A stretch of DNA of 64,000 nucleotides from Methanospirillum hungatei (lineage in GTDB: Archaea; Halobacteriota; Methanomicrobia; Methanomicrobiales; Methanospirillaceae), in contig NZ_CP077107.1 of the NCBI RefSeq assembly GCF_019263745.1, positions 2,232,001 through 2,296,000 of the forward strand. The letters are read 5' to 3'. Below, one piece after another: positions 28,969 through 50,341 of this stretch (position 1 is its first letter; each line of letters starts with the position of its first letter). The position numbers were made by a program, and so were the translations under genes. Under the pieces are notes generated by a model. The model was not told the DNA's origin and did not search any database. It was given only the letters and a program-made list of their open reading frames with translations.

Positions 28969-30354
28969 ATGAGTTTAGAGGAGGATATCAGGGCAGCTGC
29001 AGATGCAATCCGCTCTTGTGAGGAGGTTACCATCATCTCACATATTGATGCGGATGGTATCAGCAGTGAGGCCATTCTGGCCCAGGCTCTCAGTCGTGAG
29101 GGAATCCATGTATCCACGACATTTGTCCGTCAGCTTGATCCCCTGACTCTTGATCAGATCCCAAATAACTCCTCACTGAAGATATTTTCCGACCTTGGTT
29201 CTGGTCAACAGCAGATGCTCATCGAAAAAGGGCTGGATCCTTCAAAGACAATTATAATCGATCACCATGTCAGCCAACCGGCAGAAGGAGGCGATCCATT
29301 TATTGAAGTGAATTGTCTCAATCATGGTCATGAGAAGATGAGTGCAGCCGGGGTATCATATCTGCTGGCCAGGGAATTGGATCCAATATACCGTGACCTT
29401 GCAAAGCTGGCAATTATTGGGAATATTGGTGATATGATGGACAGGGAACATCTGTGTCTTATCGGTCCGGCTCGGGAAATATTACATGATGGTATCCATC
29501 ATGGAACTGTTGAACTGTGGGAACGTGATCTCAACATTTATGGTATTTCCACACGGCCTCTCCCCCAGTCCTTAGCATATTCTGATGATATGGAAATACC
29601 TGGCGTGAGCAGGGATCCGGATGGTGCAGGAAAATTCCTGGAACGAATTGGGATTAAACCCCTGCAGCCAAACAGATGGCCGGTCTGGGAAGAACTCTCA
29701 TTTGATCAGAAACAACAGGTCTGTTCAGCAGTTATTGAGCAGATGATGGCACATGGGAAAGATACCAGCCGCCTGTTTGCTGATCATTATATCTTTCCGG
29801 ATGAGGATCGTCATCAGGCATCACTTCGGAATGCATCAGAGTTTGCGACCATGCTCAACTCCTGTGGGAGATGGCAGCGGCCAGAGCTCGGTGGTTCGAT
29901 CTGTCGTGGAGACCGGGTGGTAGCATACCGGGAAGCTGAACATATGCTCCGGAACCACCGAAGTAAAATCAGGGAGGTTATGCTTTATATCACCGAGACG
30001 GGTGTTACTGAGCTATCTCATATGCTCTATCTTCATGTTGGCGGGAGGTTTCCTGATACGATTGTTGGAATTGGTGCAGGGATGGCATTATCAAGGCTCA
30101 ATCCAGAAAAGCCAATCCTCATAATGTGTGAGGATTCTCTTGATCCTTCCATGACGAAGATCTCAATGAGGACCAGGCCTGAAGTGGTGAGTAAAGGAGT
30201 TGATCTCCAGCAGGCACTTACCCTGGCATGCGAGGGTAGGGAAGGATGTTCCGGAGGGGGTCACCGGATTGCTGCTGGAGCTTTTATCCCCCGTGAGCTT
30301 GAGCGTGCATTTATCGAAGATGTCAACCGAATATTAGCGCAGCAATATGCTTAG
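28969..30354 (+). CDS. RecJ-like DHH-family exonuclease
   Basis: Protein of 461 residues of the archaeal RecJ/GAN type. DHH motifs: ISHIDADGI (about 24-32), NIGDMMDR and IIDHHVSQP (the DHH triad, near 97-103). The C-terminal DHHA1 substrate-binding domain ends with the GGGHRIAAGAFI signature. Members are single-strand-specific exonucleases that can associate with the GINS/MCM replication complex. It divides a 78-bp intergenic region with nnr. Its 3' end overlaps the PUA gene by 8 bp. Confidence 0.9.
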   Translation: MSLEEDIRAAADAIRSCEEVTIISHIDADGISSEAILAQALSREGIHVSTTFVRQLDPLTLDQIPNNSSLKIFSDLGSGQQQMLIEKGLDPSKTIIIDHHVSQPAEGGDPFIEVNCLNHGHEKMSAAGVSYLLARELDPIYRDLAKLAIIGNIGDMMDREHLCLIGPAREILHDGIHHGTVELWERDLNIYGISTRPLPQSLAYSDDMEIPGVSRDPDGAGKFLERIGIKPLQPNRWPVWEELSFDQKQQVCSAVIEQMMAHGKDTSRLFADHYIFPDEDRHQASLRNASEFATMLNSCGRWQRPELGGSICRGDRVVAYREAEHMLRNHRSKIREVMLYITETGVTELSHMLYLHVGGRFPDTIVGIGAGMALSRLNPEKPILIMCEDSLDPSMTKISMRTRPEVVSKGVDLQQALTLACEGREGCSGGGHRIAAGAFIPRELERAFIEDVNRILAQQYA

Positions 30355-30805
30355 TCGTGTCAGGACCATCGCTGATCTTCAGTTTGGCAGGGGAATCGGG
30401 GGACAGTTGTTCCCTGATTCCTGCAGGTTTATCACTTCCCGAAGAGGCGGAGTCCGTCAGGTTCTCCTTGAGGGCAAACGGCTCGCAACTCTCCGGGCCC
30501 ATGACGGACGTCTCACACTTGGATTAGCCGGTGCGAAACGCCTGCATGATGCCCTCCCCGGACAAACCGGACGAGTGGAGGTCAGGGCTGATGTGCTCTC
30601 GTTCATTGCCTCCGGAAAGAATCTTTTCAGTCGCCACGTGGTCAGGGTGGATCCGGGAATCCATGCTGGTGATGAGGTAGTGATAACAGATGGAGAAGGT
30701 CGGTTTGTTGCTATTGGAGAAGCTATTCTCTCCGGGCCTGAGATGATGGCCTCTGAAACCGGGATGGCAGTATCGGTCAGACACGGCATACAAAAAGAGG
30801 AATAA
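30347..30805 (+). CDS. PUA-domain RNA-binding protein
   Basis: Protein of 152 residues. The C-terminal 75 residues form a PUA domain (GRVEVRADVLSFIASGKNLF, VRVDPGIHAGDEVVITDGEG, AIGEAILSGPEM). The N-terminal half is a small basic domain found in the archaeal PUA proteins related to the C-terminal part of archaeosine tRNA-guanine transglycosylase. Probably binds tRNA or rRNA; no catalytic domain is present. Same operon as RecJ-like and NAC, two bases ahead of the latter. Confidence 0.85.
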   Translation: MLSRVRTIADLQFGRGIGGQLFPDSCRFITSRRGGVRQVLLEGKRLATLRAHDGRLTLGLAGAKRLHDALPGQTGRVEVRADVLSFIASGKNLFSRHVVRVDPGIHAGDEVVITDGEGRFVAIGEAILSGPEMMASETGMAVSVRHGIQKEE

Positions 30806-30807
30806 TC

Positions 30808-31143
30808 ATGTTACCTGGAATGAATCCCCGCAAAATGAAACAGATGATGAAACAACTCGGAATGGATATCAAACCTATCGAGGATGTGCAGGAGATTGTA
30901 ATTACTACCCCGACCGGACGATATGTGTTTGACCAGGCCGAGGTAGCGGTCATGAAGATGCAGGGGGTTGTAACCTGGCAGATCACTGGAGAGCCACGGT
31001 TTGAAGAGGCGGACGCTGTGATTCCTGAGGAAGATGTTGCCCTTGTTGCAGAACAGGCAAATGTTCCTTCAGAAGCAGCAAAAGCAGCCCTTGTCGAGAC
31101 GAAAGGAGATATTGCAGAAGCGATCCTTCGTCTGTCTTCATGA
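30808..31143 (+). CDS. nac: Nascent polypeptide-associated complex protein (aNAC)
   Basis: Protein of 111 residues. The NAC beta-barrel strand region is IEDVQEIVITTPTGRYVFDQ with VAVMKMQGVVTWQITGEP, and the C-terminal UBA domain is ALVAEQANVPSEAAKAALVE followed by GDIAEAILRL. The N-terminus (MNPRKMKQMMKQLGMDI) is the usual ribosome-binding segment. Homodimeric chaperone at the ribosomal exit tunnel. ATGA overlap with trmI. Confidence 0.95.
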   Translation: MLPGMNPRKMKQMMKQLGMDIKPIEDVQEIVITTPTGRYVFDQAEVAVMKMQGVVTWQITGEPRFEEADAVIPEEDVALVAEQANVPSEAAKAALVETKGDIAEAILRLSS

Positions 31144-31865
31144 TTTCCGCTGGGGACCGGGTCATCCTGTCAGGAAAAGGGAAAACCTATCTTGTTCGAG
31201 CAGGGGATGGGAGTCTTGGAACCGATCTTGGGATGGTGGAGCTCTCCCTTCTCATCGGGAAAGAGCCCGGAGATGTGATTGCAACTCGGTCCGGAAAAGA
31301 ACTTGTATTACGCCTTCCCAGGGCTACAGACTTTTTTGAACAGGCAAAACGGAGCGGAGCTCCCATGCTCCCCCGTGATATCGGGCTTGTGATAGGCCTT
31401 ACGGGAATGAATAAGCAGGATCATGTTCTTGATGCGGGAACCGGGAGTGGTGTTGCTGCTGTATTTTTTGCCGGAGTGGCAGGGAAAGTAACAACCTGTG
31501 AGCGTCGTGAGGAATTCTTTCGGATAGCTTTTGATAATATTCATGAAACGGGGCTTACAAATATTGACGTGGTTAACCAGGATGTCCTGGAGGTGGATGG
31601 GATTTTTGATATTGTCCATCTTGACCTTGGTATAACCGGGGAACATGTACGTCATGCGTATTCCCTAATTCGTCCTGGTGGGTACCTGGTCTGTTATACT
31701 CCGTTCTTTGAACAGATGGGTGTGGTGTATGACACCGCTTCCGAAATGTTTTCAGATGTCTGTGCGTATGAAAGCATTATGCGGGATATGGATCGAAGTG
31801 ATCGGGGAACACGGCCTTCGACGAAAGTGTGTCATAGCGGATATCTGACGGTTGCAAGAAAATAA
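31140..31865 (+). CDS. trmI: tRNA (adenine-N1)-methyltransferase TrmI
   Basis: Protein of 241 residues: an N-terminal small beta domain (ISAGDRVILSGKGKTYLVRA), the SAM-binding motif VLDAGTGSGVAAVFFAGV and the catalytic HLDLGI region, which together match archaeal TrmI that makes m1A at positions 57/58. A decayed copy of its last 48 codons lies 258 bp downstream (32123-32263). A product of a short duplication is therefore visible next to the intact gene. Confidence 0.92.
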   Translation: MISAGDRVILSGKGKTYLVRAGDGSLGTDLGMVELSLLIGKEPGDVIATRSGKELVLRLPRATDFFEQAKRSGAPMLPRDIGLVIGLTGMNKQDHVLDAGTGSGVAAVFFAGVAGKVTTCERREEFFRIAFDNIHETGLTNIDVVNQDVLEVDGIFDIVHLDLGITGEHVRHAYSLIRPGGYLVCYTPFFEQMGVVYDTASEMFSDVCAYESIMRDMDRSDRGTRPSTKVCHSGYLTVARK

Positions 31866-31901
31866 ACGAACACTAAAAAAGAGCAATTATTGGATATTTT
31901 C

Positions 31902-32111
31902 CTAGACCTTTTTTAGAGGAAATGCGTCATTATTCATTATAGATGCACAGTTTCCAGTTGCTCGTATGACAAGAAGCCCGCAGTTTTGAGCATGGGTAAT
32001 TACATTTTCTTTTTTATGAATAAAGACACCAGTTCTGTAAATTTTTTTATCATAATATCCAGCAACCATTCCTTGAGATGACTGAGCCTTGATATGAAAT
32101 GAGCGGTATTC
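31902..32111 (-). pseudogene. 3' remnant of a protein gene, family unknown
   Basis: On the minus strand an open frame of 69 codons with no start codon near its 5' limit runs from 32111 to a TAG at 31902-31904. The deduced peptide is protein-like: QSSQGMVAGYYDKKIYRTGV, KENVITHAQNCGLLVIRATG, CASIMNNDAFPLKKV. The upstream limit is a stop codon only 9 bp from the edge of the trmI copy, so the gene seems cut there. It looks like the C-terminal end of a larger enzyme, but I cannot name the family. Confidence 0.45.
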
Positions 32112-32122
32112 TCAGTTTTTAA

Positions 32123-32263
32123 GATGGGTGTGGTCTATGGACCCAAACCTTGGATTATTCCATAGATTTCTGCGTATGGGGTCATAATGCAGGACATGGA
32201 CCGGTTATTCGATGAACACCTTTTGAAGACGGTGTGTCACAGAAAGCATCAATTGGTTGCGAG
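32123..32263 (+). pseudogene. Degenerate copy of the trmI 3' end
   Basis: Translating from 32124 gives MGVVY, then a TAG in place of one codon, AYGVIMQDMDR, and TVCHRKHQLVAR, matching trmI residues MGVVYDT...AYESIMRDMDR...KVCHSGYLTVAR (nucleotides 31715-31859) in order and spacing. DNA identity is clear but reduced to roughly two thirds by eye. The copy has no start region and carries an in-frame stop, so it is dead. Confidence 0.75.
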
Positions 32264-32432
32264 GGGGTATTGTTTGGTTCCCGGATAGCTCGTTCATTAA
32301 CGATGATCTGTTGGATGTGCGATATTCTTGTGAAGGGGCTATTGAGGGATAGTATAAGAGAGATAACAAAAATCTCCCTCAAAGATGATATATCCAAAAA
32401 AGTACGTATAATTAGATTGGTTCTTGGTTATT

Positions 32433-33002
32433 ATGTCAGATTCAGATAAGAAACAATATCATATTTGTGTTAAAGGAAAAGTCCAAAGGGTTTGGTTTCG
32501 TGATAAAATTGAGGATCTTGCAGATGATCTTGGATTAACCGGGTATGTTCAAAACCAGTCCGCGAAAGATGGGGTCATTGTCGTTGAGAGCGAGGATGAA
32601 ATAATCACCCATTTTGTATCGTTTATCCGGAATATTCCTCCCCCTATAAAAATAAAATCCATTGATGTTTCTGAGCGACCATATTCTGGAACGTTCTCAG
32701 AGTTTACTATCATTCGAGGAGAGATGATGGAAGAACTTTCAGAAAGGTTTGATTCTGCAATATATTACTTAAATAATATCGATATAAAGCAGGATAAGAT
32801 GCTTGGTAAGCAGGATCAAATGGTCGAGAAGCAGAATACTGTTATTGGACTTCAAATAGAGACATTAAATGAGATTAAAGGGGTACGTAAAGATTTTCAG
32901 AAAACATTTACCGAAGAGTTGATTGAGATCCGTGGCGAGATCCGGGAACTACGGACAGCCATGATACAAGCCGGGTACCTGAAGAAAGCAGATGTACAAT
33001 AA
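32433..33002 (+). CDS. Acylphosphatase-domain protein with C-terminal coiled coil
   Basis: Protein of 189 residues from the ATG at 32433 (the longer frame starts at a TTG). Residues 8-95 are an acylphosphatase domain with the phosphate loop GKVQRVWFR and the catalytic Arg23 and Asn41 (GYVQNQSAKDGV). The usual GVGFR or GVWFR loop here has Arg before Val (VQRVWFR). Residues 100-185 form a long charged coiled coil with quasi-repeats (KQDKMLGKQDQMVEKQNTVI). Ordinary acylphosphatases are about 90 residues, so the coiled coil is an added module, perhaps for oligomerisation. Confidence 0.8.
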   Translation: MSDSDKKQYHICVKGKVQRVWFRDKIEDLADDLGLTGYVQNQSAKDGVIVVESEDEIITHFVSFIRNIPPPIKIKSIDVSERPYSGTFSEFTIIRGEMMEELSERFDSAIYYLNNIDIKQDKMLGKQDQMVEKQNTVIGLQIETLNEIKGVRKDFQKTFTEELIEIRGEIRELRTAMIQAGYLKKADVQ

Positions 33003-33165
33003 TATGCCTTAATATCACGAATAATCGATTTATGTTTTTTTAATCATTCGCGTCTTTTTTTCTGGTTTTCATTGTGATGCATAAGAGAAATTGGTATTTC
33101 CTAATGAGAGATTCGATCAGACAATTAGATCAGATATCGACATTTGCCGAATTTTTCTCTGGGAA

Positions 33166-33241
33166 ACTATTTATTAGGATACTCACAACCTTGTTTTGTT
33201 GATGCTGAGAGTATCAGCATGAAATGTAGGAGGAAATTTAC
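33166..33241 (+). promoter_or_regulatory. Promoter, 5' stem-loop and ribosome site of the envelope protein gene
   Basis: A TATA-like ACTATTTATTA (33166-33176) predicts transcription starting near 33198. A perfect 7-bp stem with a 5-nt loop (ATGCTGA/TCAGCAT, 33202-33220) would then lie almost at the mRNA 5' end. AGGAGG (33228-33233) follows, 8 nt before a GTG start. The combination of strong ribosome site and terminal stem-loop is what one expects of a stable, abundant mRNA. Confidence 0.6.
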
Positions 33242-34324
33242 GTGAAGTTCGGATACGCAATTGTTCTTGCACTGGTTGCACTTGTTGCGGTCAGCGGGTT
33301 TGCATCAGCAGACCGTCTCCCGTCTCAGGTCCCAGAAAACCAGATTTTTACCATTGACACCCTTATCGATGTCACTGGTGCAGTCAGCGAAGAAAGCGAA
33401 ATGCAGTGGACCCTTGATGACCAGAGCTGGAAGAAGACCACTCTGACACAGGACACAACTCAGGCTGGATGGACTCCAAACGCATGGGTAGCAACAGCAC
33501 TTAACAATGCAAAGGCAACAGACGTTACTGTTTCCTATAATGCAGATGGGACTATTTCAAAACTTGTTGTCTCTGACTGGATGCTTACCAAGGTAGTTAA
33601 CCCAGCACAGGATGAGGACTACACTTACGCAGACCTTATCGCTGAAATTGAGGATGAATCTGATGCATACAGTGAGTCTACCTCAACCGATAAGGGTTAT
33701 ATTCACAACAGCAAGCTCAACCCAACCGAAGAGATCATGATCCTGACCTGGACCGACTCTCTCCGCACCAACGGTGGCAAGTTGTCACTCAACAAGAACA
33801 TTGACTTTGACTCACAGAACAAGGGCAAGGGCCTTTCCAACCTCGAAGTTGAGAAAGTTCTGACCTATGCAAGCACCGAAGGTGCACACCTTGTCGGAGC
33901 AGAGGAATGGACTCTTGATGTCGCAGGCAACTGGGAAACCTCAGCTGACACCATCCGCTGTGTCTTTGCATCCTCTGCAAGCGAGTACTTCCCGGCATTC
34001 TGTAATGTCGTCAAGGCAAAGAGCGAACTTGTTAACATCAACAGTGCACAGATCTCCACCAAGGGAGCTGTCCGCAGTGTTGCAAACGAAGGCACTATTC
34101 CAGCAATGCTGAACTACCAGATCGCAGTCACCCCTGACAGCAACTCTGGCAGTGGATTTGCAGACGGTACTGTCAAGACCATGTTCGGCGGCTCCATCAT
34201 GGAAGCACGTGACAAGAACGACCAGACCTCAGCAACCAACAACTGGAAGGACTCTGCATCCGTCACTGGCGGAATCAAGAACTTCCAGAAGACCTTCAAC
34301 TACGAATCAGGATTTAAGTTCTAA
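33242..34324 (+). CDS. Abundant secreted envelope protein, candidate sheath-type protein
   Basis: Protein of 360 residues with a GTG start and a classical signal peptide (IVLALVALVAVSGFASA, cleavage before DRLPS). The mature part is rich in Thr, Ser, Asn and Asp with alternating beta-strand patterns and no membrane helix. Two cysteines (RCVF...AFCN) are spaced 15 residues apart and conserved in the paralogue at 36986. Codon use is strongly skewed to C-ending codons (AAC, GAC, ATC, AAG), unlike its neighbours, indicating very high expression. Size, secretion, abundance and paralogy fit the major sheath protein of Methanospirillum (MspA/SH type), but I cannot verify this by search; an S-layer-like protein is the alternative. 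It has no N-x-S/T sequon except N-P-T. Confidence 0.5.
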   Translation: MKFGYAIVLALVALVAVSGFASADRLPSQVPENQIFTIDTLIDVTGAVSEESEMQWTLDDQSWKKTTLTQDTTQAGWTPNAWVATALNNAKATDVTVSYNADGTISKLVVSDWMLTKVVNPAQDEDYTYADLIAEIEDESDAYSESTSTDKGYIHNSKLNPTEEIMILTWTDSLRTNGGKLSLNKNIDFDSQNKGKGLSNLEVEKVLTYASTEGAHLVGAEEWTLDVAGNWETSADTIRCVFASSASEYFPAFCNVVKAKSELVNINSAQISTKGAVRSVANEGTIPAMLNYQIAVTPDSNSGSGFADGTVKTMFGGSIMEARDKNDQTSATNNWKDSASVTGGIKNFQKTFNYESGFKF

Positions 34325-34339
34325 TACTTAAATCTCTGA

Positions 34340-34352
34340 TTTTAACTTTTTT
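34340..34352 (+). terminator. T-rich terminator of the envelope protein gene
   Basis: About 15 bp after the TAA, the run GATTTTAACTTTTTT gives two T tracts (T4 and T6), the usual intrinsic stop signal for archaeal RNA polymerase. No stable hairpin precedes it. Confidence 0.35.
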
Positions 34353-34484
34353 AATTCCTGGCTTTTCGCTCGAAGTTTTTATCTTTTACAGAATTATTTC
34401 AGGTTTGTGCCTAAAACCGTTTTTCAAACCTTCGCACTCTGAAGAAAAATTGATATGTGGTTTTAAGGATACGTATTGGGTAGT

Positions 34485-36905
34485 ATGATCATTACCCGAA
34501 AGAAGCTTACTGTTGTTCTTTTCTGTCTCATTTTTTCTGCTATTGTTGGGTTATTTTTCCGATTACAAACCCTGTTGGATTTCTCTTCTGGAATTATTCC
34601 TATCGTCATGCATGAGGATCCCTGGTATACTGTCAGACAGATAGAACAGATGGTACATAATTACCCATCTTATGCATGGTTTGATCCAATGCTGAATTAT
34701 CCGGATGGGAAAACCATCCAGTGGGGTCCTTTCTTTCCCTTTCTTGGGGCCACTCTTGCATTAGTTTTTGGTGCAACAACACAAGGAGATGTTATCAGGA
34801 TTGCTTCCTGGGTACCTCCATTGTTGTTTTTAGTGATGATTCCGATTAGTTTTTTGATCGGTAAAAAAATCTGGAATTTACGGGTAGGGGTGCTCTCTGC
34901 AATTCTGGTGAGTGTTGTGAATGGTGAATTTTTATATCGCTCCATGTACAGTAACCTTGATCACCATATTGCAGAGACGGTTTTATCGTTTGCCTTCATT
35001 TTAGGATATTTGTACATCCTTCAGTTTCTAAAAAATAAAAATCACTCAGAAAAATCAACATATCTTTACCTCTTGAGTCTTTTCTGCGGGGTGGTTTTTT
35101 ATATGGGATATATGAACATCCCGACAATAATGCTTGTAGCATTAACTATTCCGATATTTTTTGTTGTGTATGCTTTTCTTGAAGATGATGCAAGTTCGGT
35201 TTTTAAACTTTTTTTAGCGAACGCCATAATATTTGGGACATTTATTCTACTCTATCTTCTATCGGGAGTTCCCTATCATGGACTGGATATCCAAGGGTAT
35301 AATTATGGAGTTATTGCTGCTTCTATTGCGATAATACTGTTTTCACTCTTTGTTAGTGTATTAAAACAACATTTCGCAATACAGTCTGGAAAAGCAAATC
35401 CAAAATTTTTTATAATCTCTAGCGTCCTTACAGTTCTGATAATAATCTTGGGGTATTATTTTGGCATTATATACTCATTTTATAATTCATTTATCCGGTT
35501 TTTCTTTGCTTCATTTAGTAGTACTGGTATTGATGAATTAAGCCCTATATCATTAATGAGGGCCGTTTTAAGTTATAATGTTGCAATAGCCTTTTCAATA
35601 ATCGGGTTTTTCATTGTTGTTTATGCAATTATCAGGAATAAAAACCGGATTTTGATCTATTTTTTTATCTGGGCAACCTTACTTTCCATTGTATCAATAT
35701 CACAGGTTCGGTACCAATACTACGAAGGACCGATTGTTTGCATACTCATGGCGATCTGTCTTGATCAGATATATTTAAAATTGTCAGAACAATTAGATAA
35801 GAAAAAGAAGGTTACTAATTCTAGTCTGAATTCGAAAAATATCGCACTAATTTTTATTACTCTCATAGTCGTTGTGTATTATATTCTTTCTTTATCAATT
35901 GGATTATATGTTCTCCCAACTTTTTATGGAAAATCAATAAAAAGTGAATGGGTTGACACTACTCTGTGGCTCAAAAATAACACCCCTGCGCCATCATTAG
36001 ACTATTATGCTATCTATGAGCATGACTTATTTCAATATCCATCCAATACACATACTATTTTATCCTGGTGGGATTATGGGCATTATATCCTCACAATTGG
36101 AAACCGGCTCCCATTAGCGACTCCTCTACAAGATCGGGGTGCACATATAGCAGCATCATTTTTTTTAACAACGAATGAGACCAAAGCAAATCAGGTCATT
36201 TCACCATTTCATGCCAGGTATATCGTAACAAACTATGACCTCAGCCAAATCTATAACACTGTATCTCTATGGGCAGGCCAAAAATTCTCATATGAATCAT
36301 ATATTCATAATTTTATAAGAAAAAATAATGATAATGTGGCCCAATTGAAAGGACTTCGGGATCCATTCTTTTTGTCCATGTTTACACGAATGCATTATTT
36401 CGATGGTTCATTCATGAAAGCATCAGAAGGACATGAGATTTCATATGCAGATATTCCTTCTGATGGTGTGAATATATCATATATTGTTCATGATTTGGAT
36501 CCATCAACTCTGGATCTTAATCCAGCTTTCATAAAAAAAGAAATAATTTCATTTAACTATACACGTTCGACAGTCGACGTTCCGGCTCTGACATCATACC
36601 GGTTAATTTATGAATCACCAAAAGTGGTCTCGAATCTTACAGACTTCGAGATTCATCCGGTAAAGGTTTTCGAACATGTCAAGGGACACACCATCCCCGG
36701 AACCGGAACGGTAGAACTCCCTCTTGTTACAAACCAGGGCCGAAATTTTACCTACCGGCAACAGAGTGTCAACAACACATTCACTCTTCCCTATTCAACG
36801 ACGAATTCACCTTATGATGTTCATGCAACCGGACCATATCGGATTATTGAAACGAATGAGACTTTTGAGGTAGATGAGTCCCAAATAGAAAAGTACTATA
36901 TATAA
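34485..36905 (+). CDS. aglB: Oligosaccharyltransferase AglB (STT3 family)
   Basis: Protein of 806 residues from the ATG at 34485. About 12-13 membrane helices occupy the first 480 residues. The first external loop carries the catalytic acidic motif MHEDPWYTVRQIE, and a DHH follows in the second (NLDHHIAETV). The soluble C-terminal domain has the family signature WWDYGHY (SWWDYGHYILTIGNRLP). This is the single-subunit enzyme that moves glycan from dolichol phosphate to Asn of N-x-S/T. It lies between two homologous envelope genes, suggesting that at least one is its substrate. Confidence 0.93.
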   Translation: MIITRKKLTVVLFCLIFSAIVGLFFRLQTLLDFSSGIIPIVMHEDPWYTVRQIEQMVHNYPSYAWFDPMLNYPDGKTIQWGPFFPFLGATLALVFGATTQGDVIRIASWVPPLLFLVMIPISFLIGKKIWNLRVGVLSAILVSVVNGEFLYRSMYSNLDHHIAETVLSFAFILGYLYILQFLKNKNHSEKSTYLYLLSLFCGVVFYMGYMNIPTIMLVALTIPIFFVVYAFLEDDASSVFKLFLANAIIFGTFILLYLLSGVPYHGLDIQGYNYGVIAASIAIILFSLFVSVLKQHFAIQSGKANPKFFIISSVLTVLIIILGYYFGIIYSFYNSFIRFFFASFSSTGIDELSPISLMRAVLSYNVAIAFSIIGFFIVVYAIIRNKNRILIYFFIWATLLSIVSISQVRYQYYEGPIVCILMAICLDQIYLKLSEQLDKKKKVTNSSLNSKNIALIFITLIVVVYYILSLSIGLYVLPTFYGKSIKSEWVDTTLWLKNNTPAPSLDYYAIYEHDLFQYPSNTHTILSWWDYGHYILTIGNRLPLATPLQDRGAHIAASFFLTTNETKANQVISPFHARYIVTNYDLSQIYNTVSLWAGQKFSYESYIHNFIRKNNDNVAQLKGLRDPFFLSMFTRMHYFDGSFMKASEGHEISYADIPSDGVNISYIVHDLDPSTLDLNPAFIKKEIISFNYTRSTVDVPALTSYRLIYESPKVVSNLTDFEIHPVKVFEHVKGHTIPGTGTVELPLVTNQGRNFTYRQQSVNNTFTLPYSTTNSPYDVHATGPYRIIETNETFEVDESQIEKYYI

Positions 36906-36985
36906 TCATCTCTTTTCTCTAATTTTTACTCTACATAACTATCAAATACTCTCCTCGTGAGTATACATTTGCACTGGGGTGGGGT

Positions 36986-37807
36986 ATGTATTGGATACGT
37001 CTATATGTAGTTGCCATTATGGCATTATTTTTAATACCTGTTCCGATTTGGGGAGACTTTTTGCCAAACGCGACTCCGGAGAATCAGGTATTCTCAATCA
37101 CAACTTTGATCGATGTGATAGGATTTGTGAGAACTGATACAGAGATGAGCTGGACAATATCTGGAGGGACATTAGAGAGTAAAAAATTTGGATCTGATGA
37201 GACACTCGCCTCGCTATTATACAAGGACTCGATGATGACCAATGGCGGACATTTGTTACTGAGTAGTTCTCTTGATTTTGATTCACGAAACAAGTCCAGT
37301 GGGCTGTATAATTTCGAGACTGACAAGGTATTTACCTACGAGAGTATGGAAGGTAGTCACCTGGTTGCAGATGAGTACCTGGTGATGAGCACCGGAGGTA
37401 ATTATTCTGATTCTGGCAACATTGGTCGGTGTGTTTTTGCATCTGACTCTTCAGCTTCAGCGCCGGCGTTCTGTAACACGGTCCGTGCACGTAGTTCCCT
37501 ATTGAATGTAAATAGTGCACAGGTTTCAACATCTGCTAAATCCAGAATTGTGGCTGCTGATGGTTCAGTTCCGTCAGCTCTATCTTACCGGATTGATTTA
37601 ACTCCGAATCCTGCGTCCAGTCTTGGATATGCTGTGGGATCGGTAACAACAGAATTTTCTGCAGATATCATGGAGGCAAGGAGTGATGGGAGCTCATGGA
37701 ATAAGACTTCGGCAACAAATACCATGAAAGATAAAGCATCGGTCTCTGGGGGGATAATTACCTTCTCGAAAGCATTTGATTATCAGTCAGGTCTTCGGAT
37801 CACCTGA
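36986..37807 (+). CDS. Secreted paralogue of the candidate sheath-type protein
   Basis: Protein of 273 residues, signal peptide included (VVAIMALFLIPVPIWG). It aligns with the 33242 protein from PENQVFSITTLIDV onward and shares the Cys pair (GRCVF...AFCN), NSAQVST and the end region MEARSDG, SVSGGI, FDYQSG. A block of about 90 residues present near positions 70-165 of the larger protein is missing. It has four N-x-S/T sequons (NATP, NKSS, NYSD, NKTS), while the larger paralogue has none. Codon use is ordinary, so it is less expressed. Probably a minor component or variant of the same layer. Confidence 0.6.
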   Translation: MYWIRLYVVAIMALFLIPVPIWGDFLPNATPENQVFSITTLIDVIGFVRTDTEMSWTISGGTLESKKFGSDETLASLLYKDSMMTNGGHLLLSSSLDFDSRNKSSGLYNFETDKVFTYESMEGSHLVADEYLVMSTGGNYSDSGNIGRCVFASDSSASAPAFCNTVRARSSLLNVNSAQVSTSAKSRIVAADGSVPSALSYRIDLTPNPASSLGYAVGSVTTEFSADIMEARSDGSSWNKTSATNTMKDKASVSGGIITFSKAFDYQSGLRIT

Positions 37808-37882
37808 CCTTTTTTGGGCAGGTATAAACCTTCAGTTTTTGTTGCCTAAATATTTTTTATTTTTTATATTTTCCATCCCCTA

Positions 37883-38224
37883 ATGAAGAGTGCTGAGTCG
37901 GCAGGAACATTACTCCGGAAAACAATAGAACTTGAAAAGAATCTTCCGGATGAGAGTCTTCGAAACAAGGTTCGTGAGCTTACTCTTATCTTGTCCAACC
38001 AAATTGTTAATAAAACCATACTCGATGAACTTTGGGAGGAACTTCAAATGCTGAAAGTGATAAAATACGCCGAAGAGAAAGGGATGAAAAAAGGGATAGA
38101 AAAAGGGACGATCGAAGTTGCCAAAAACCTCCTTTCTTTAGGAATGGATGCTGAGTTTGTTATGAAAGCGACTGGTTTAGATCTCCCTACAATCCGGTCC
38201 CTTGAGAAACTAACTCGTCAGTAG
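37883..38224 (+). pseudogene. 5'-truncated copy of the Rpn-family nuclease gene
   Basis: The 113 codons from the ATG at 37883 match residues 160-288 of the intact gene at 39032 (MKSAESAGTLLRKTIELEKN, ESLRNKVRELTLIL, LPTIRSLEKL), with a shorter KGIEKG stretch. The nuclease half is missing and no frame continues upstream. That internal Met is not a natural start, so the reading frame is a leftover of the segmental duplication, though a short coiled-coil product remains possible. Confidence 0.75.
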
Positions 38225-38240
38225 CCTCATCCCTTTTCTC

Positions 38241-38466
38241 CTTTCCGGATGAGAATCTTCGAAACAAGGTTCGTGAGCTAACTCTTATCTTATCAAACCG
38301 GATTGTGGATAAAAAGATACTTGATGAACTTTGGGACACATATTCGTCTTTCACAAAGATTCAATATACCTTTCCTGTAAAGCAGGGTTATGACGATCCC
38401 AATAGGTTGAAGTTTTCCTATCGTAACGAAGGCTTTTTCATGATCTATTTTGGGGTTATTTTCTGA
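38241..38466 (+). pseudogene. Second Rpn-gene fragment with conserved tail
   Basis: Directly after the truncated gene, the sequence again matches the Rpn segment for PDESLRNKVRELTLILSNRI and following codons to DELWD, then continues into a tail reading YTFPVK...YRNEGFFMIYFGVIF and a TGA. The same arrangement occurs after the intact copy (39913-40144). Fragment without start codon. Confidence 0.6.
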
Positions 38467-38601
38467 TTTGGGGGGTAATTTGGGAGATTTAATACTGTGT
38501 TTATATGTGGAGCCAGAATATTGTCGAATTGGCCTTTATTTTGCCTATATCCAAAGAAAATCGACTCTGTAGAGGGCCGGTATTTGTTCCGGATATGGGG
38601 G

Positions 38602-38612
38602 TATATAAATAG
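38602..38612 (+). promoter_or_regulatory. TATA-like element in repeat copy A
   Basis: The run TATATAAATAG in copy A matches the one in copy B at 40280-40290 upstream of the pilin-like gene. It lies about 195 bp before the truncated pilin ORF. Presumably a duplicated, possibly still active promoter. Confidence 0.4.
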
Positions 38613-38804
38613 TGGGGTACATGGAAAAAGGCTGTCTCCGGCCGTCTGTACGTGTATTTTAAAATTTGCTAATTGAGGTTATATGGTAAAATAAAACCTT
38701 ATAGGAGTATATTTGGAATTTATTTGGATTAATCCGTATTTTCTGCTTGTGTTTTTCTGCTGAAATGTATATCCCTTAAGAGGTTGATTACTCATGCAAT
38801 AGCC

Positions 38805-38951
38805 ATGTCTGGTCGGGTTAGTGAAGACGGTCTTTCCGAGGTAATCGGATTCATTCTGATTCTTGGTTTGTTAGTCGTTGTGTTATCTCTGTATGTTACC
38901 TATGTAGTTCCATCTGAAGGCCGGACACATGAGATCGAACAGATTGGTTAA
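38805..38951 (+). pseudogene. Truncated pilin-like gene, 48 codons
   Basis: Starts with the same MSGRVSEDGLSEVIGF as the pilin-like gene at 40483 and is nearly identical over 45 codons, then a 52-bp deletion brings in GGT TAA. The product would be just a class III signal peptide plus the hydrophobic pilin helix (ILILGLLVVVLSLYVTYVV). Created by the segmental duplication; whether it is expressed is unknown. Confidence 0.65.
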
Positions 38952-39031
38952 ATAAATTATTCATCGATAATCCAATCCTGTGAAAAACCGAATAATACTA
39001 ATCTCATGATCTCCAGAGTTTTTGGGCCTTC

Positions 39032-39898
39032 ATGAAAAAAATTCACCACAATAATTATGATCTGGTCCTGAAAGAGGCATTCTCTCTTTTCCATAACAAA
39101 TCTCTGGATTTTCTCGGTCTTGATCTCCCTCCCATTGTCAGTTTTATGGAGACCGAAATTGCCGAAGTTGAGACAACCGACGACATGATGGATCTCAACT
39201 TTCTCCTTCAGGACGGTTCAATCCTTCATCTCGAAGAGGAGACTTATCTCTCTATTGGGGACCTGATCCGGTTTGCTCATTATGATCTCCGGTTATACAA
39301 GCGGTATAAGAAAAGGATCCATACGGTGGTCCTTACTCCATCTGATGGATTACCAGGAACAAAGGTATTAGATACTGGTAATCTACAGTATAGTGTACTA
39401 CAGATTGTCTTTCAAGATAGGGATGGAGACTCACTCCTTGAAGAAATTCAATCCGCTCTGGGTAGAGGAGAACCGGTGAATGAACTGGAGATGATTTTCC
39501 TTCCTCTAATGAAGAGTGCTGAGTCGGCAGGAACATTACTCCGGAAAACAATAGAACTTGAAAAGAATCTTCCTGATGAGAGTCTTCGAAACAAGGTTCG
39601 AGAGCTAACTCTTATCTTATCAAACCGGATCGTGGATAAAAAGATACTTGATGAACTTTGGGAGGAGCTTCAAATGCTGAAAGTGATAAAATACGCCGAA
39701 GAGAAAGGGATGAAAAAGGGGATTGAAAAAGGAATAGAAAAAGGAATAGAAAAAGGGATAATGAAAGGTAAAGAGGAAGGGACTATCGAAGTTGCCAAAA
39801 ACCTCCTTTCTCTAGGAATGGATGATGATTTTGTTATGAAAGCAACTGGTTTAGATCTCCCTACAATCCGTTCCCTTGAGAAACTAGTTCATCAGTAG
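39032..39898 (+). CDS. Rpn-family PD-(D/E)XK nuclease
   Basis: Protein of 288 residues. The N-terminal 110 residues form the nuclease-like core found in Rpn/transposase-associated families: acidic DLNFLLQDGSILHLEEET (Asp and Glu of the PD-ExK type) and LIRFAHYDLRLYKRYKK. Residues 165-225 are helical. Then a run of repeats (KGMKKGIEKGIEKGIEKGIM) and a short C-terminal helix-turn-helix-like end (LGMDDDFVMKATGLDLPT). Rpn proteins promote recombination or DNA cleavage. The repeat run varies in length between this and the truncated copy. Two decayed fragments flank it, so the locus has been unstable. Confidence 0.75.
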   Translation: MKKIHHNNYDLVLKEAFSLFHNKSLDFLGLDLPPIVSFMETEIAEVETTDDMMDLNFLLQDGSILHLEEETYLSIGDLIRFAHYDLRLYKRYKKRIHTVVLTPSDGLPGTKVLDTGNLQYSVLQIVFQDRDGDSLLEEIQSALGRGEPVNELEMIFLPLMKSAESAGTLLRKTIELEKNLPDESLRNKVRELTLILSNRIVDKKILDELWEELQMLKVIKYAEEKGMKKGIEKGIEKGIEKGIMKGKEEGTIEVAKNLLSLGMDDDFVMKATGLDLPTIRSLEKLVHQ

Positions 39899-40290: not shown

Positions 40291-40482
40291 TGGGGTACAT
40301 GGAAACAGGGTGTCTCCGGCCGTCTGTACGTGTATTTTAAAATGTGCTAATTGAGGTTATATGGTAAAATAAAACAATATAGGAGTATATTTGGAATTTA
40401 TTTGGATTAATCCGTATTTTCTGCTTGTGTTTTTCTGCTGAAATGTATATCCCTTAAGAGGTTGATAACTCATGCAATAGCC

Positions 40483-42957
40483 ATGTCTGGTCGGGTCAGT
40501 GAAGACGGTCTTTCCGAGGTAATCGGATTCATTCTGATTCTTGGTTTGTTAGTCGTTGTGTTATCTCTGTATGTTACCTATGTAGTTCCATCTGAAGGCC
40601 GGACACATGAGATCGAACAGATGGATTACATCAAACAACAGTTCCTTGATTATAAATTGAGCACGGATGCTCTTTGGTTAAATAATCAAATCGGTGCATC
40701 AATCAGTCAGTCACTAAGAATGGGAACTGGTGGAGCGACAACTTCAGGTATGTTTGGTGGGTTCTCGTTGGTTTCTCCGGTTGGCTCATCTGGTTCGGTA
40801 ATGGTGAATCCGATGGAGAGATCGGAGCGGATGCATATTACTGCAACCGGTGTTACTCAGAACAATCCAGCAGTGTTCAGAGTGATAGATGGTCCGATAA
40901 TTGATAGTGTTAGTCCAAAATCTGTTGCTATGGGAGTACCAACTACAGTTATAATCGAGGGATCTGGGTTTAGTGATGGGATTGATAAAGTAGAGATTTT
41001 TTTTAACAATAAAAGATTAGTGGATCTTGATGATGATGATGAGGACGATAAAATTCTCATTAACAATAATCAGATAACGATTGAGGATTATTCATCCATA
41101 GAATCAGGGATAGTACATATCTATCTAAGAAAACCCGGTGGTGTCAGTTCGAATAATGCTTATATTTTGATAGAGTCTCATTCTAGCAGCATTCCTACTC
41201 CCAAAATTGACACATTCGTCAGTACTAGATACCTATTAGATTCAGATCCTATTGCTTCGTCTAGAATTATTGTAATAGGAACAGGAATATCAGAAGACTA
41301 CACTAAATTTTTTGTAAATAATAACTTTGTTGATAAAAGTGATTTAATTTTTAATTCTGGCTCCAGTCCCGTAAATATCATTAATTTACAGAAATATCTC
41401 GTTACAGAGGGATCGATACCAACTATTACCCCATGTGTTATTCCTATTACTATTGTAAATCCTCCTGGCATAACGACTCCGGGGGGTGGAAGTTCGAGTT
41501 ATGAATTCTATGTTCTCCCAAAAAAAACCGGTTTTCCAGAAATCTGGGGTATTTCGCTAAAACAAACATCTGTGACTAATCTTGGTTTGAATGAAGATCT
41601 GATTATCTATGGAGCAGGATTTGTTCCTCCTATTCATGTGATGTGGGGAGATGAACTCATTAACTCTTATTCCATTATTAATTCCAATGAAATTCATATT
41701 CCAAAAGAGTGGTTTAATGACCATTTGAATGAAGAAAAGACTGTGGAGATATCAGTTCGTAATGGTGGGTCATCAGGTTCGATTGAAAAGTCTAGCGGTT
41801 CATTGTACCCGGCTTATCAAATTATTGCTAGCCTTTATCCTATTGAACATATTTTTATCCGATTTGTTGATCTTGGTTACATACCATTTAATGTGATCCT
41901 CGACAGTGATGATAATCCTAGATCTATTACATTACACGAATTTTTTAGATATTATTATGGAGTCATATTAAAAGACTCATATAACGATCTTTCGATTGAA
42001 ATCAAGGCGAATCCAAGGATTATTAGTTCTGATTGGAATTATTTAAAAAATGCGAATCCTAATTCAAACCCTAATTTAAATTATTATAATATAACTTACC
42101 AGACGGATCTAGTTTTAAATGTCACTCAAAATAAAACCCATATAATGGGAAATTACGTGATAAAATCTAACATAAGCCAAAATGAAGAAATCTGGTTTGA
42201 TTTGATGAATCCAGCATATGGTATATGTGATTTCATTAAAGCCCCCTTTGAATTCAATCCTCAGGTAGTTTCGGGTTCTAATCCACCACTAGATCCAAAA
42301 TTCACTGGTGCCCATCGATTTAGCGTTGATTATGTGATTTTGTCTAACTTAAAAAATGGAACAATAATTATTGATAACGCTCTTGGCGGCCTCGAATATA
42401 ACTCTAAGAATTATTATTATCGCTCTCAGCAGGATTTCATCTATCAGAACGGAGGTGTTTTCGTAGAACAACCAGATGGCTCATACCCCTTAGTTCTCCC
42501 TCCCATATCGATCTCAAGAGATGGAGATAATCTCGTGGTTGGCATAACAAATATCCCTGTATCCGGATATGATACCGTTGGCGGTAGTTCACAGGTTCAG
42601 GTCTCGTCCACTTTGGATTCGGTAAATACCTTTGGCCTCACTCCTGGTTTACCGAATGCAAAATCAGTATTGTTACATATTGATCCAACAACAGAGAGTA
42701 ATTGGGTAAAATGGATTACTACATTAAAGGCTATTTGCGAAAATGCCCGAAGTAATGGTGTCCCTGTTGCGTTTTCTAGAGATGATGACAATTATGATTC
42801 TGCATGGGTAAGAATAGAGGACGATGTTTCTGGGGTTCCAATGTTGAATATAAGGGGTGGCGGTGATGAAAACGATCAGGATATTATTCTGGATCTAAAA
42901 ACATCGGAATTCTCTGTATCATTAAATCCGGTTGGCAAAGCAGTGAGTATTCGATGA
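40483..42957 (+). CDS. Large type IV pilin-like surface protein
   Basis: Protein of 824 residues from the ATG at 40483 (the longer frame begins at a TTG). N-terminus GRVSEDGLSEVIGF followed by about 20 hydrophobic residues is an archaeal class III signal: prepilin peptidase should cut between Gly and Leu. The ectodomain of some 780 residues is beta-rich, with two IPT/TIG-like Ig segments (PIIDSVSPKSVAMGVPTTVI, FPEIWGISLKQTSVTNLGLN), an acidic DDDDEDDK patch near residue 187 and no other recognised domain. Overlaps the next gene by 4 nt. Likely a minor pilin or adhesin; far larger than a structural pilin. Confidence 0.7.
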   Translation: MSGRVSEDGLSEVIGFILILGLLVVVLSLYVTYVVPSEGRTHEIEQMDYIKQQFLDYKLSTDALWLNNQIGASISQSLRMGTGGATTSGMFGGFSLVSPVGSSGSVMVNPMERSERMHITATGVTQNNPAVFRVIDGPIIDSVSPKSVAMGVPTTVIIEGSGFSDGIDKVEIFFNNKRLVDLDDDDEDDKILINNNQITIEDYSSIESGIVHIYLRKPGGVSSNNAYILIESHSSSIPTPKIDTFVSTRYLLDSDPIASSRIIVIGTGISEDYTKFFVNNNFVDKSDLIFNSGSSPVNIINLQKYLVTEGSIPTITPCVIPITIVNPPGITTPGGGSSSYEFYVLPKKTGFPEIWGISLKQTSVTNLGLNEDLIIYGAGFVPPIHVMWGDELINSYSIINSNEIHIPKEWFNDHLNEEKTVEISVRNGGSSGSIEKSSGSLYPAYQIIASLYPIEHIFIRFVDLGYIPFNVILDSDDNPRSITLHEFFRYYYGVILKDSYNDLSIEIKANPRIISSDWNYLKNANPNSNPNLNYYNITYQTDLVLNVTQNKTHIMGNYVIKSNISQNEEIWFDLMNPAYGICDFIKAPFEFNPQVVSGSNPPLDPKFTGAHRFSVDYVILSNLKNGTIIIDNALGGLEYNSKNYYYRSQQDFIYQNGGVFVEQPDGSYPLVLPPISISRDGDNLVVGITNIPVSGYDTVGGSSQVQVSSTLDSVNTFGLTPGLPNAKSVLLHIDPTTESNWVKWITTLKAICENARSNGVPVAFSRDDDNYDSAWVRIEDDVSGVPMLNIRGGGDENDQDIILDLKTSEFSVSLNPVGKAVSIR

Positions 42958-43430
42958 TTTCACGAAGAGAAGAAGGAGTATCGGATTTAATTGGAGTTAT
43001 TATTCTCGTCGCTATTGCTGCATTAGCAGTGGGTATTATTGGTTCAACATTTTTTTCGTATGTTTCAGTTGTAAGTATCCCTCGAGCTGAATTGTCAATA
43101 ATCTGGCAGAATGGACCAGAAGATGGTTCTGATATTAAAAAACCCTATATCGTTTTTGAGCGTGGAGAATCATTATGGTATAATTCTACTCGCGTAAAAA
43201 TCAACGATGAAGGTGTGGATTTATCTAGTATATGGATTAAAAAAAGTGGCAATAATCAATACTTTTTATGGAATAAAACAATTAGCGATGATGGGGTGAT
43301 CGTTCCTTTTTCGATTGGAGATACCTTGAAATGGGATGGGCATGATCAAGCTGATAATATTTCGATAACGTATATTCAGGCCGGAAATGAGATTCTCTTG
43401 ATGACCGGAGACAGAATTCCAGAAAAATAA
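42954..43430 (+). CDS. Type IV pilin-like protein
   Basis: Protein of 158 residues with N-terminus RREEGVSDLIGVIILVAIAA, the classical archaeal type IV pilin start (cut after Gly, then VSDLIGV and a hydrophobic helix). The ectodomain of about 120 residues has beta patterns and two N-x-S/T sequons (NSTR, NKTI) plus NISI near the end. Its size is that of a true pilin, so it could be the main subunit of whatever this cluster builds. ATGA overlap with the gene before it. Confidence 0.8.
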   Translation: MISRREEGVSDLIGVIILVAIAALAVGIIGSTFFSYVSVVSIPRAELSIIWQNGPEDGSDIKKPYIVFERGESLWYNSTRVKINDEGVDLSSIWIKKSGNNQYFLWNKTISDDGVIVPFSIGDTLKWDGHDQADNISITYIQAGNEILLMTGDRIPEK

Positions 43431-43452
43431 ACCATTCCGTGTTTGATGATAA

Positions 43453-46400
43453 ATGAGAAATAATAACGCAGTAAGTGAGTTAATCGGTGCACTTCTCATA
43501 ACTGGCGTCATCGCTGGAGGAATTGGTTTAATCGCTGTGATTCTTATCTCTCAACCTCCTCCGGTTGATCTCCCCGCTGCGGATTTTAAACTCGTGATTG
43601 ATGATAATGAAAAAATAATTCGTATCTCCCATGTACGGGGCGATTCCCTTCGGGTTTTTGATGAATCTGGTTCAAATTATTGGTCAAGTATTCATGTGAA
43701 TGTGGATGGGCAGCCATATGAAATAGTGGGAGAGGGTTCTCCTTATGGAAGTTCTCAGTTCAAATTAATAAAAAATTCTCCAAATCCCGATTATCTCTAC
43801 TACGCAGTTGGTGATGTGCTAGAGGCCTCATTTCCTGATATGAATAAAAGACCTGAAAATGTTCAGTTTATTTACAAAGATAATAGAGGTGGGGAATATG
43901 TTCTTTGGGGATATGGAGGTTCAGAAAAGTATACTCCCGGAAAAGTTTCATTTTCGTATACCCCAGCGAATCCATATCCTTGTGATCTAATCCAATTCCG
44001 GGATACTTCGTCAGTTACAGCTACATCATGGTCTTGGGATTTTAACGGTGATGGTGTAGAAGATAGTCGAGATCAAAACCCACTCCCTTATCAATACGAA
44101 AGTCCTGGTACCAAGACCGTAACTCTGACCGTTAGCAATGGGATCGATACATGGAAAACAAGTCGGATAGTTACGGTTCATTCGTTTATTGCTGATTTTA
44201 GTTTTGTTCCCTCAACACCCACTACAGGTACAGCGATCAAATTTTCTGATTCTTCAAAAGGAAATCCAGAAATCTGGGAATGGAATTTTGGTGATGGAAC
44301 ATCTTCAACTGATCCAAATCCAACTCATTCCTATACCATTCCTGGTAACTATATTGTTCAGCATAGAATCGGAAAAACCAGTTCTTCATGTAGTAATTGG
44401 AGTGAATGGGAACGGAAAACTATTGAAATAACTGAGTGTACTCCAATTAGTGGCTTGTCTTTTAGTTACACACCTGATACAATATGTATTAACTCCCGGA
44501 TTTTATTTAGATCAACGCTCTCTGAAGGTTCTGAACCAATATCATATACCTGGATAATTGATGGTATTCAATATAACGAGCAGAACCATTACCATGTGTT
44601 CACCCAACCGGGATCCCATTCGGTAATATTACGAGCTTCGAATTGCGCTGGTTCGGTAGAAACCCCTCCACGTGACGTTCTGGCGGTGGATTGTAGTTGT
44701 TCAGTGAAAATTACCTCTACTTCAACTGCAGGTGGCTCAATATCACCATCAGGTGAGATAACTCTGTCTTGTGGAAGTGATCAGATTTATACGATTACTC
44801 CTGATCCCTGTTATGCGATCTCTGATGTTTTGGTTGATGATGTCTCACAGGGTCCTATTAGTTCCTATACATTTGAAAAAGTAGCTGCTAATCATAAAAT
44901 CGAAGTTCAGTTTGAAAATCCCGGGAATTCTTACCAGATCGAATCAATTTCTGGTCCTGGTGGTTCCATAACCCCTTCAGGCATTACCTCAATTACTTGT
45001 GGAAATAATCAGGCTTTTACGATCACTGCCGATCCTTGTTATGTGATCTCTGATGTTTTGGTTGATGATGTCTCACAAGGTCCTATTAGTTCCTATACGT
45101 TTGAAAGTGTGCAATCCAACCATAAAATTGAGGTTCATTTTGAACACTCCGGAACAACATACCAGATCGAATCGATTTCTGGTCCTGGTGGTTCCATAAG
45201 CCCTTCAGGTATTGTCTCTATTCCTTGTGGAAATGATCAGGCTTTTACGATTAATCCTGATCCCTGTTATAAAATCTCTGATGTTTTGGTTGACGGTGTC
45301 TCGATCCCCGGTTCTTTCTCGAATCCCTATGTATATTCCGGGTTCACAAATGTTCAAAAAGACTACATTCTGGAAGCTGTTTTTACGGAAATACCCTATA
45401 ACATAACTATTAGTGTTACGGGGAATGGAGTGATTTCTCCAGGGACTGGCACCGTTCTTTGTGGTTCAAGTCCCATGTATACCATCACTGCTGATCCCTG
45501 TAATTATATTTCCTCCATACTGATAGATGGTGTTCCGCTTTCGGGTCCTTTCTCAAATCCGTATGTGTATTCGGGATTCACGAATGTTCAGCAAGATCAT
45601 ACTCTTTCGGCTGTTTTCACTGGAATCTCCTATAATATTACAACAAGTACAACCGGTAGTGGTACAATAACTCCTGGAAGTGGTCCTGTTCTCTGTGGTT
45701 CAAGTCCGGTGTATACTATCACTGCTGATCCCTGTAACCGAATTTCTTCTATCATTGTTGATGGAAACGCCCCTACTGGCCCATTTGAAAGCCCCTATAA
45801 TTACTCTGGTTTCTCGAATGTCCAGGAAGATCACACAATAGAAGCAGTATTTATTGAAAGTCCTTTAACAATCACGACAATAATAACGGGGAATGGAGTG
45901 ATTTCTCCAGGGACTGGCCCCGTTCTTTGTGGTTCAAGTCCCATATATACCATCACTGCCGGTTCCTGCAATCGTATTTCCTCCATATTGGTTGATGGGA
46001 TTCCGCTTTCGGGTCCTTTCTCAAATCCTTACGTGTATTCTGGATTCGCAAATATTCAGGAAGATCACATAATTGAAGCGGTATTTACTCCTGATACATT
46101 TAATATTACAGCTACAGCCGGGACCGGTGGATCAATATCACCATCAGGTGTCGTCCCGGTAACCTGCGGTGGCAGCCAGACCTTCACCTTCACACCAGAT
46201 TCAGGATACGAAATCGACGGAGTTATCGTTGATGGCCAGTCAATTGGTGTTGTAAACAGTTATACGTTCACTAATATTCAAGAAAACCATACGATCCACG
46301 TAGATTTTGGTAATACTGGTTACTGCCTTATTGCAGGATATATCACCGATGAAACAACCGGATTGGGTGTCCCTGGAATCAAGGTAGATGTATGGAATGA

Positions 46401-47469: not shown

Positions 47470-47645
47470 CCCATTTTTGAACCGGAAAACTCATATTCAC
47501 GACTCAATGCCATAAGAAAAAGAGATAAAAAAATTTGATTTTTATTCCAATTACTCTAAATATCAAAAACAAATCTCAATATGGCTGCGTTTCATAAGGT
47601 TAAAAGAAAGTAGTAAAAGAAAACTTTTAATATGAATTCGGGTTT

Positions 47646-48731: not shown

Positions 48732-48802
48732 TCCTGAATAATAGTAGCCAAGATGGCTACAAATGCAATAAATAGACAGATTGATGGGAGATATTTAGAC
48801 CT

Positions 48803-50212: not shown

Positions 50213-50341
50213 GTGTTCCGTTATGAAATATAAGGAATTTCTGACTTCGATTTCCGGCACGTGATGGATATATAATCCGGATAATAGAATATATTTTAAT
50301 TATTGCCATTCCTGAAAAACATTCAACACCATGTGACATTC

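Follow-up and report, generated by a model that had tools for sequence, protein, structure and literature searches.

A Methanospirillum hungatei sheath locus with a divergent AglB gene between capped and cap-less sheath protein genes

The sheath of Methanospirillum hungatei JF-1 is the closest described system. Its subunit, SH (MspA), was identified by mass spectrometry (PMC6242892) and has been modelled into tomograms, with the cap placed on the outside and the D43 and K363 turns on the inside (PMC10593813). The JF-1 sequence comprises 377 aa and carries Thr86, Ser144, Asn157, Cys257 and Cys271, matching the published features. Asn157 was proposed as a possible glycosylation site (PMC10593813, citing PMC5695567); it falls outside any sequon. 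Two cysteines (C257 and C271) are present in the JF-1 MspA sequence (L074 12901–14034), in agreement with the 2023 paper; the 2018 paper gives one (C271). The JF-1 S-layer protein stains as a glycoprotein (PMC11641113), which makes envelope glycosylation plausible. A survey of the SH family, in the portion of its text available to us, describes no conserved context beyond the SH genes themselves (PMC11576556).

We analyzed a 64,000-nt stretch (the window) of a Methanospirillum genome of 3.39 Mb in one contig (G000). Relatives are numbered where needed; G002 is taken as JF-1 from the sheath-protein features given above, and M. stamsii is G009. The locus comprises the following features.

28969–31865, + strand: block of genes for a DHH protein, a TGT_C2/PUA protein, NAC and a TrmI-like methyltransferase (Pfam; kept in relatives)
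33160–33241, + strand: SH promoter region and 5' leader, with a near-invariant element at 33200–33233 (hairpin and AGGAGG)
33242–34324, + strand: SH, capped major sheath protein, 360 aa (JF-1 homology, codon adaptation, structural model)
33422–33727, + strand: hypervariable cap domain of SH, about residues 61–162 (identity comparison over 10 species pairs)
34347–34352, + strand: T-run after SH, probable terminator (T6 in a five-species alignment)
34476–36905, + strand: sheath-locus AglB, 809 aa (TIGR04154; own clade)
36066–36080, + strand: AglB codons for WWDYG, residues 531–535 (intact in the window copy, altered in four orthologues)
36940–36955, + strand: promoter-like block before SHs (kept in G011 and G005, where no AglB precedes SHs)
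36986–37807, + strand: SHs, 273-aa minor paralogue of SH lacking the cap (sequons at N28, N102, N139 and N239; Cys149 and Cys163)

The order SH–AglB–SHs is common to five species: the window genome, JF-1, G008, M. stamsii and G010. The DHH–PUA–NAC–TrmI block lies 5' of SH in the window genome, JF-1, M. stamsii and G010, and the G008 contig stops short of it. The same block precedes SH in G007, G003 and G001, each of which has two SH genes in succession. AglB is missing at the equivalent place in these three species and in G011, in which SH adjoins SHs with the SHs promoter block intact; in G005, SHs stands with neither SH nor AglB upstream. We take the promoter blocks to be archaeal TATA elements. 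A T6 run about 20 bases 3' of the SH stop is invariant in all five aligned species, and the JF-1 SH gene has been published as not belonging to an operon (PMC6242892); SH, AglB and SHs therefore seem to be separable units.

The surroundings hold several further genes. Between TrmI and SH, 32424–33002 encodes an acylphosphatase domain with an extra C-terminal part of about 90 aa, and a 125-aa relative stands at this place in G008. Two Rpn-type genes, TIGR01784-like and below the cut-off, lie at 37883–38224 and 39032–39898, and the former encodes a 113-aa fragment that matches the C-terminal portion of the latter's product at about 82% identity. A cluster of surface protein genes (type IV pilin-like Pilin_N, PKD, TIG and lectin-like) occupies 40462–51253 beside the sheath locus. 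In JF-1, an 873-aa probable secreted protein is encoded about 5 kb from SHs (L074 1374–3995); judged by distance alone, this is perhaps the S-layer protein gene. TruB and UroS are presumptive names of JF-1 neighbours.

By sequence criteria, the gene for the 360-aa protein is orthologous to that for SH/MspA, the main sheath subunit of M. hungatei. Its product is 68% identical to the 377-aa JF-1 protein over 378 columns and has a signal peptide, Cys240 and Cys254. An AF2 model of moderate confidence (pLDDT 70.9) has 12 strands in the core, with the cap spanning approximately residues 61–162, in agreement with a 12-strand, two-sheet beta core bearing the cap between strands 2 and 3. A sequence search of the PDB gave one match, at E 0.25, which is not meaningful. 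Codon adaptation was computed against the mcrBDCGA genes. The CAI of SH (0.720) was the highest among the 76 ORFs of at least 150 aa, SH itself included, compared with the weak bias of SHs (0.416), and the large protein is probably the abundant form. The first-pass annotation had described a strongly biased 360-residue gene and a homologous 273-residue one with AglB encoded between them. All of this holds: the flanking genes are both of the sheath family (47% identity over 211 aa), and the product of the intervening gene matches TIGR04154 over its full length at 587 bits, above the cut-off of 450. No match to SHs was found among phage records.

A conserved 34-nt leader precedes SH. Within three mismatches, it was found in 31 of 81 family genomes and 10 of 17 genera, and the reversed control sequence gave zero matches in the same search. 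Of the 12 genus genomes, 8 carry it as a single copy with zero mismatches. We checked 34 copies, a subset of those in the family; an SH gene begins 5–8 bases downstream in 33, and the remaining copy is cut by a contig end. The leader folds into a hairpin (z −3.5). No Rfam family reached its gathering threshold within 31000–39000, and viral contigs contained no exact match to the leader core. We found no mention of the element in the searched literature on Methanospirillum, sheaths or 5' UTRs, including the promoter and UTR text of three sheath papers. Where a genome has many SH copies, the leader offers a way to single out the one that is probably the main sheath gene; it is also a target for work on sheath regulation.

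The two sheath proteins differ in sequon content as the first-pass annotation stated. SH has zero N-x-S/T sequons, its sole candidate being N160-P-T, whereas SHs has four. Sequence shuffling (4000 shuffles, on the first 24 of 50 rows) gave a mean of 4.97 sequons for SH, with P(≤0) = 0.003. The corresponding value for JF-1 SH was 0.0027, although the orthologues are not independent of each other. The four sequons of SHs are close to the chance expectation of 3.3. Two of them, N139-Y-S/T and N239-[KRQ]-T, are kept in 7/7 orthologues and in one more distant row. The SHs model itself was too weak for mapping these sites (pLDDT 46); their predicted loop exposure was judged by strand parity on the usable SH model.

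The annotation had further suggested that the abundant protein may have been purged of sequons, perhaps so that a tight, amyloid-like or disulphide-linked sheath can form, with the minor form glycosylated; as assessed here, the adjacent AglB would act on the minor form. This would fit zero sequons in SH where about five are expected, and the adjacency of AglB in five species. It would also fit a second capped paralogue (SH2), which is sequon-free in 4/5 rows and has a probable JF-1 member that ranks second in transcription among the SH genes of that strain (PMC11576556). The asymmetry is indeed kept in relatives, but the leader-marked sheath genes of the sister species G001, G003 and G007 retain 2–3 sequons each, including an N-terminal N-A-T and a C-terminal N-K-T. 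In G007, for which alone of these three codon bias was computed, the leader-marked gene has a CAI of 0.679 and is among the two most codon-biased SH copies. These data do not support abundance as the cause of sequon loss. Across the family, 21 of 32 leader-bearing SH proteins of at least 200 aa carry one sequon or more. The 11 sequon-free proteins comprise four capped members of the window lineage and seven from four other genomes.

Sequon position also speaks against purging. Among 47 of the 50 genus SH rows (G000_L085, G000_L086 and the truncated G011_SHp were dropped), 125/128 sequon occurrences fell in predicted outward loops, compared with 301/770 of other Asn residues. Counted by distinct columns, the figures are 22/24 and 80/138. 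Outward assignment combines strand parity on the moderate-confidence SH model with the published orientation. On this basis, the sequon loops would point to the outside, away from the beta core that forms the rings. The sheaths of M. lacunae and M. stamsii withstood a dissolution that worked for M. hungatei (PMC6242892), giving no sign that sequons weaken the sheath, with the caveat that the sequon state of the main M. lacunae protein is not tied to a genome. As the locus AglB has moreover a broken acceptor motif in 4/5 species (below), we consider purging for tight stacking quite unlikely.

As judged from these alignments, sequon loss within the genus instead follows the capped lineage rather than abundance. 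Among the 50 genus SH proteins, with the truncated G011_SHp dropped, a single core sequon was counted in all 12 complete capped rows together, whereas each of the 37 rows with a short S2–S3 loop (≤29 aa) has at least one. A further capped protein, from G006, has none. The cap size linked to sequon loss in the genus is about 105–130 aa. The capped proteins of the genus make up what is essentially a single clade, and one coincidence may account for the joint occurrence of cap gain and sequon loss. As a family-wide rule the relation was rejected: outside the genus, the G035 and G023 proteins each have a cap as well as 2 core sequons, and those of G024, G025, G032, G020 and G021 have a short loop (15–35 aa) and zero core sequons.

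The AglB is the odd part of the locus and is distinct from the ordinary AglB. The window copy has Pfam matches to STT3, AglB_core-like and AglB_L1, a CAI of 0.419, and a start listed as TTG with a possible ATG 9 bases downstream; its four orthologues score 558–576 bits against TIGR04154, all above the cut-off. In a 45-row tree, built, like the SH family tree, at a quick setting, the five sheath-locus AglBs group in a single clade (SH-aLRT 99.9), separate from the remaining AglBs of their genomes. A swap in place by an unrelated paralogue, hinted at by the 37% identity to the JF-1 copy, was thereby ruled out; replacement by related AglB alleles remains a candidate for the JF-1/G008 pair. Titles and abstract openings of the literature on AglB or oligosaccharyltransferase with Methanospirillum or sheath, and on sheath glycosylation, revealed nothing on the locus AglB.

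The acceptor motif separates these copies from other AglBs. WWD[YF]G is present in 39/40 other AglB rows and in 1/5 sheath-locus rows. The window copy has an intact WWDYG; the motif reads WWGFG in G010, WWNFG in M. stamsii, WWTSG in JF-1 and SWEYG in G008. The EL1 Asp, DHH..E and IxE Glu are retained in 5/5. Among 58 positions invariant in 36 other AglBs (G002_3425, G004, G001_C192 and G012 left out), changes in the locus copies cluster at residues 526–568, with 9/13 positions changed there against 8/45 elsewhere (p = 0.0008, a flattering value as the stretch was picked post hoc). The window AglB is itself altered just N-terminal to its WWDYG.

In oligosaccharyltransferases, WWD and the DK/MI residue form the pocket for the +2 Ser/Thr (PMC3703281). 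The C. jejuni PglB variants W457S, W458R/C, D459V, Y460N and G461D are inactive, as is D459N in combination with S492C (PMC3527161). Loss of this Ser/Thr-reading motif in 4/5 locus AglBs, and the further intact AglBs encoded in these genomes, weaken the idea that the locus enzyme glycosylates SHs. An ordinary glycosylation locus, in which an AglB with a tolerant pocket modifies SHs and S-layer proteins and the motif changes are neutral, would suit the window copy with its WWDYG and the scores of 558–587 bits in all five. The window AglB may be an ordinary enzyme. As an account of the locus this is very unlikely, given the conservation of WWDxG in 39/40 other AglBs and its essential role in PglB (PMC3527161).

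Alternatively, the locus AglB could be an evolving pseudo-enzyme or a hitchhiking duplicate, placed by chance and with no role in the sheath. The four different ways in which WWDxG has been lost, the inactivation of bacterial PglB by similar changes (PMC3527161) and the absence of AglB at this place in G011 and in the sister species G001, G003 and G007 are consistent with this, as is a low CAI in 4/5 species (G010 near the median; G008 left out). We nonetheless regard it as rather unlikely. All five reading frames are full-length, the catalytic acidic residues are kept in every copy and the gene is retained in place across five species. In the closest pair, dN/dS of the sheath-locus AglB is 0.24, indicating constraint, although less than for other AglBs (0.05–0.14).

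Over 10 species pairs the SH cap is 25–41% identical, compared with 86–93% for the core and with 64–96% for SH2 caps over the same pairs. The comparison of the close relatives JF-1 and G008, a single pair that includes one fragmented draft genome, has a mosaic pattern. Amino-acid identity is 97% for AglB3, 91% for AglB2, 90% for SHs and 93% for the SH core (dS 0.27–0.43), and SH2 caps reach 96% identity in this pair. In contrast, identity falls to 41% in the SH cap (dS 2.4) and to 48–53% over AglB codons 1 to ~720 (dS about 2), before the last 110 AglB columns return to 95% (dS 0.57). Third bases give the same picture: at fourfold sites of residues shared by both species, identity was 0.21–0.64 in the diverged AglB blocks, 0.45 in the cap and 0.69–0.84 in flanking segments. 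The simplest reading of saturated divergence in the SH cap and AglB codons 1–~720 only is that two segments were exchanged with diverged relatives. Pressure from viruses or partners may lie behind this variation. We also considered that the locus AglB has abandoned the Asn-x-Ser/Thr rule and modifies non-canonical sites on the SH cap, with enzyme and cap swapped as a matched pair in a manner resembling surface variation; this is highly doubtful.

The reading we favor, at a probability of about 50%, is a major sheath locus with sequon loss in the capped lineage, outward sugar sites on the cap-less forms and an exchangeable AglB cassette. SH would be the abundant beta-arch subunit, exported via its signal peptide and polymerized into rings, with an outer end bearing a protein cap and lacking a canonical N-glycan acceptor. 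SHs would be a low-level, cap-less subunit with conserved sequons in outward loops. N-glycosylation of SHs is probable, with one of the general AglBs of the genome as the likeliest enzyme, and SHs could be incorporated as a minor, sugar-coated subunit. The core-sequon form is widespread in the family, and the capped lineage may have lost its core sequons upon or after cap gain, so that the protein cap would occupy the place where relatives carry predicted sugars. The locus AglB would be a dedicated paralogue with relaxed acceptor reading, carried as a lineage-specific exchangeable cassette. It may vary together with the SH cap, probably because the two determine the outermost surface that viruses and partners encounter.

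This reading links an oligosaccharyltransferase paralogue with the gene for a protein polymer that ranks among the largest known. In that paralogue, the motif taken to govern acceptor choice is being lost, and whether an oligosaccharyltransferase can work without WWDxG is directly testable. The sequon positions likewise provide a testable map of the sugar-bearing side of the sheath.

Compared with JF-1 SH/MspA (Mhun_2271, WP_011449234.1), the window protein shares the stated identity, the signal peptide, two Cys positions, the same locus and a cap between strands 2 and 3. It differs in that the caps are only 31% identical, and its assembly into an amyloid-like sheath is predicted from sequence. 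The locus AglBs resemble AglB/STT3 oligosaccharyltransferases (TIGR04154) in their full-length domain match and retained catalytic acidic residues, but form a fast-diverging clade of their own within the sheath locus, with WWDxG lost in 4/5 orthologues. The multicopy SH proteins and diverse caps agree with the family survey of Medvedeva 2024 (PMC11576556, as far as its available text goes); relative to that survey, the present locus adds a gene context at genus level, a leader element in common and, in one lineage, a dedicated AglB.
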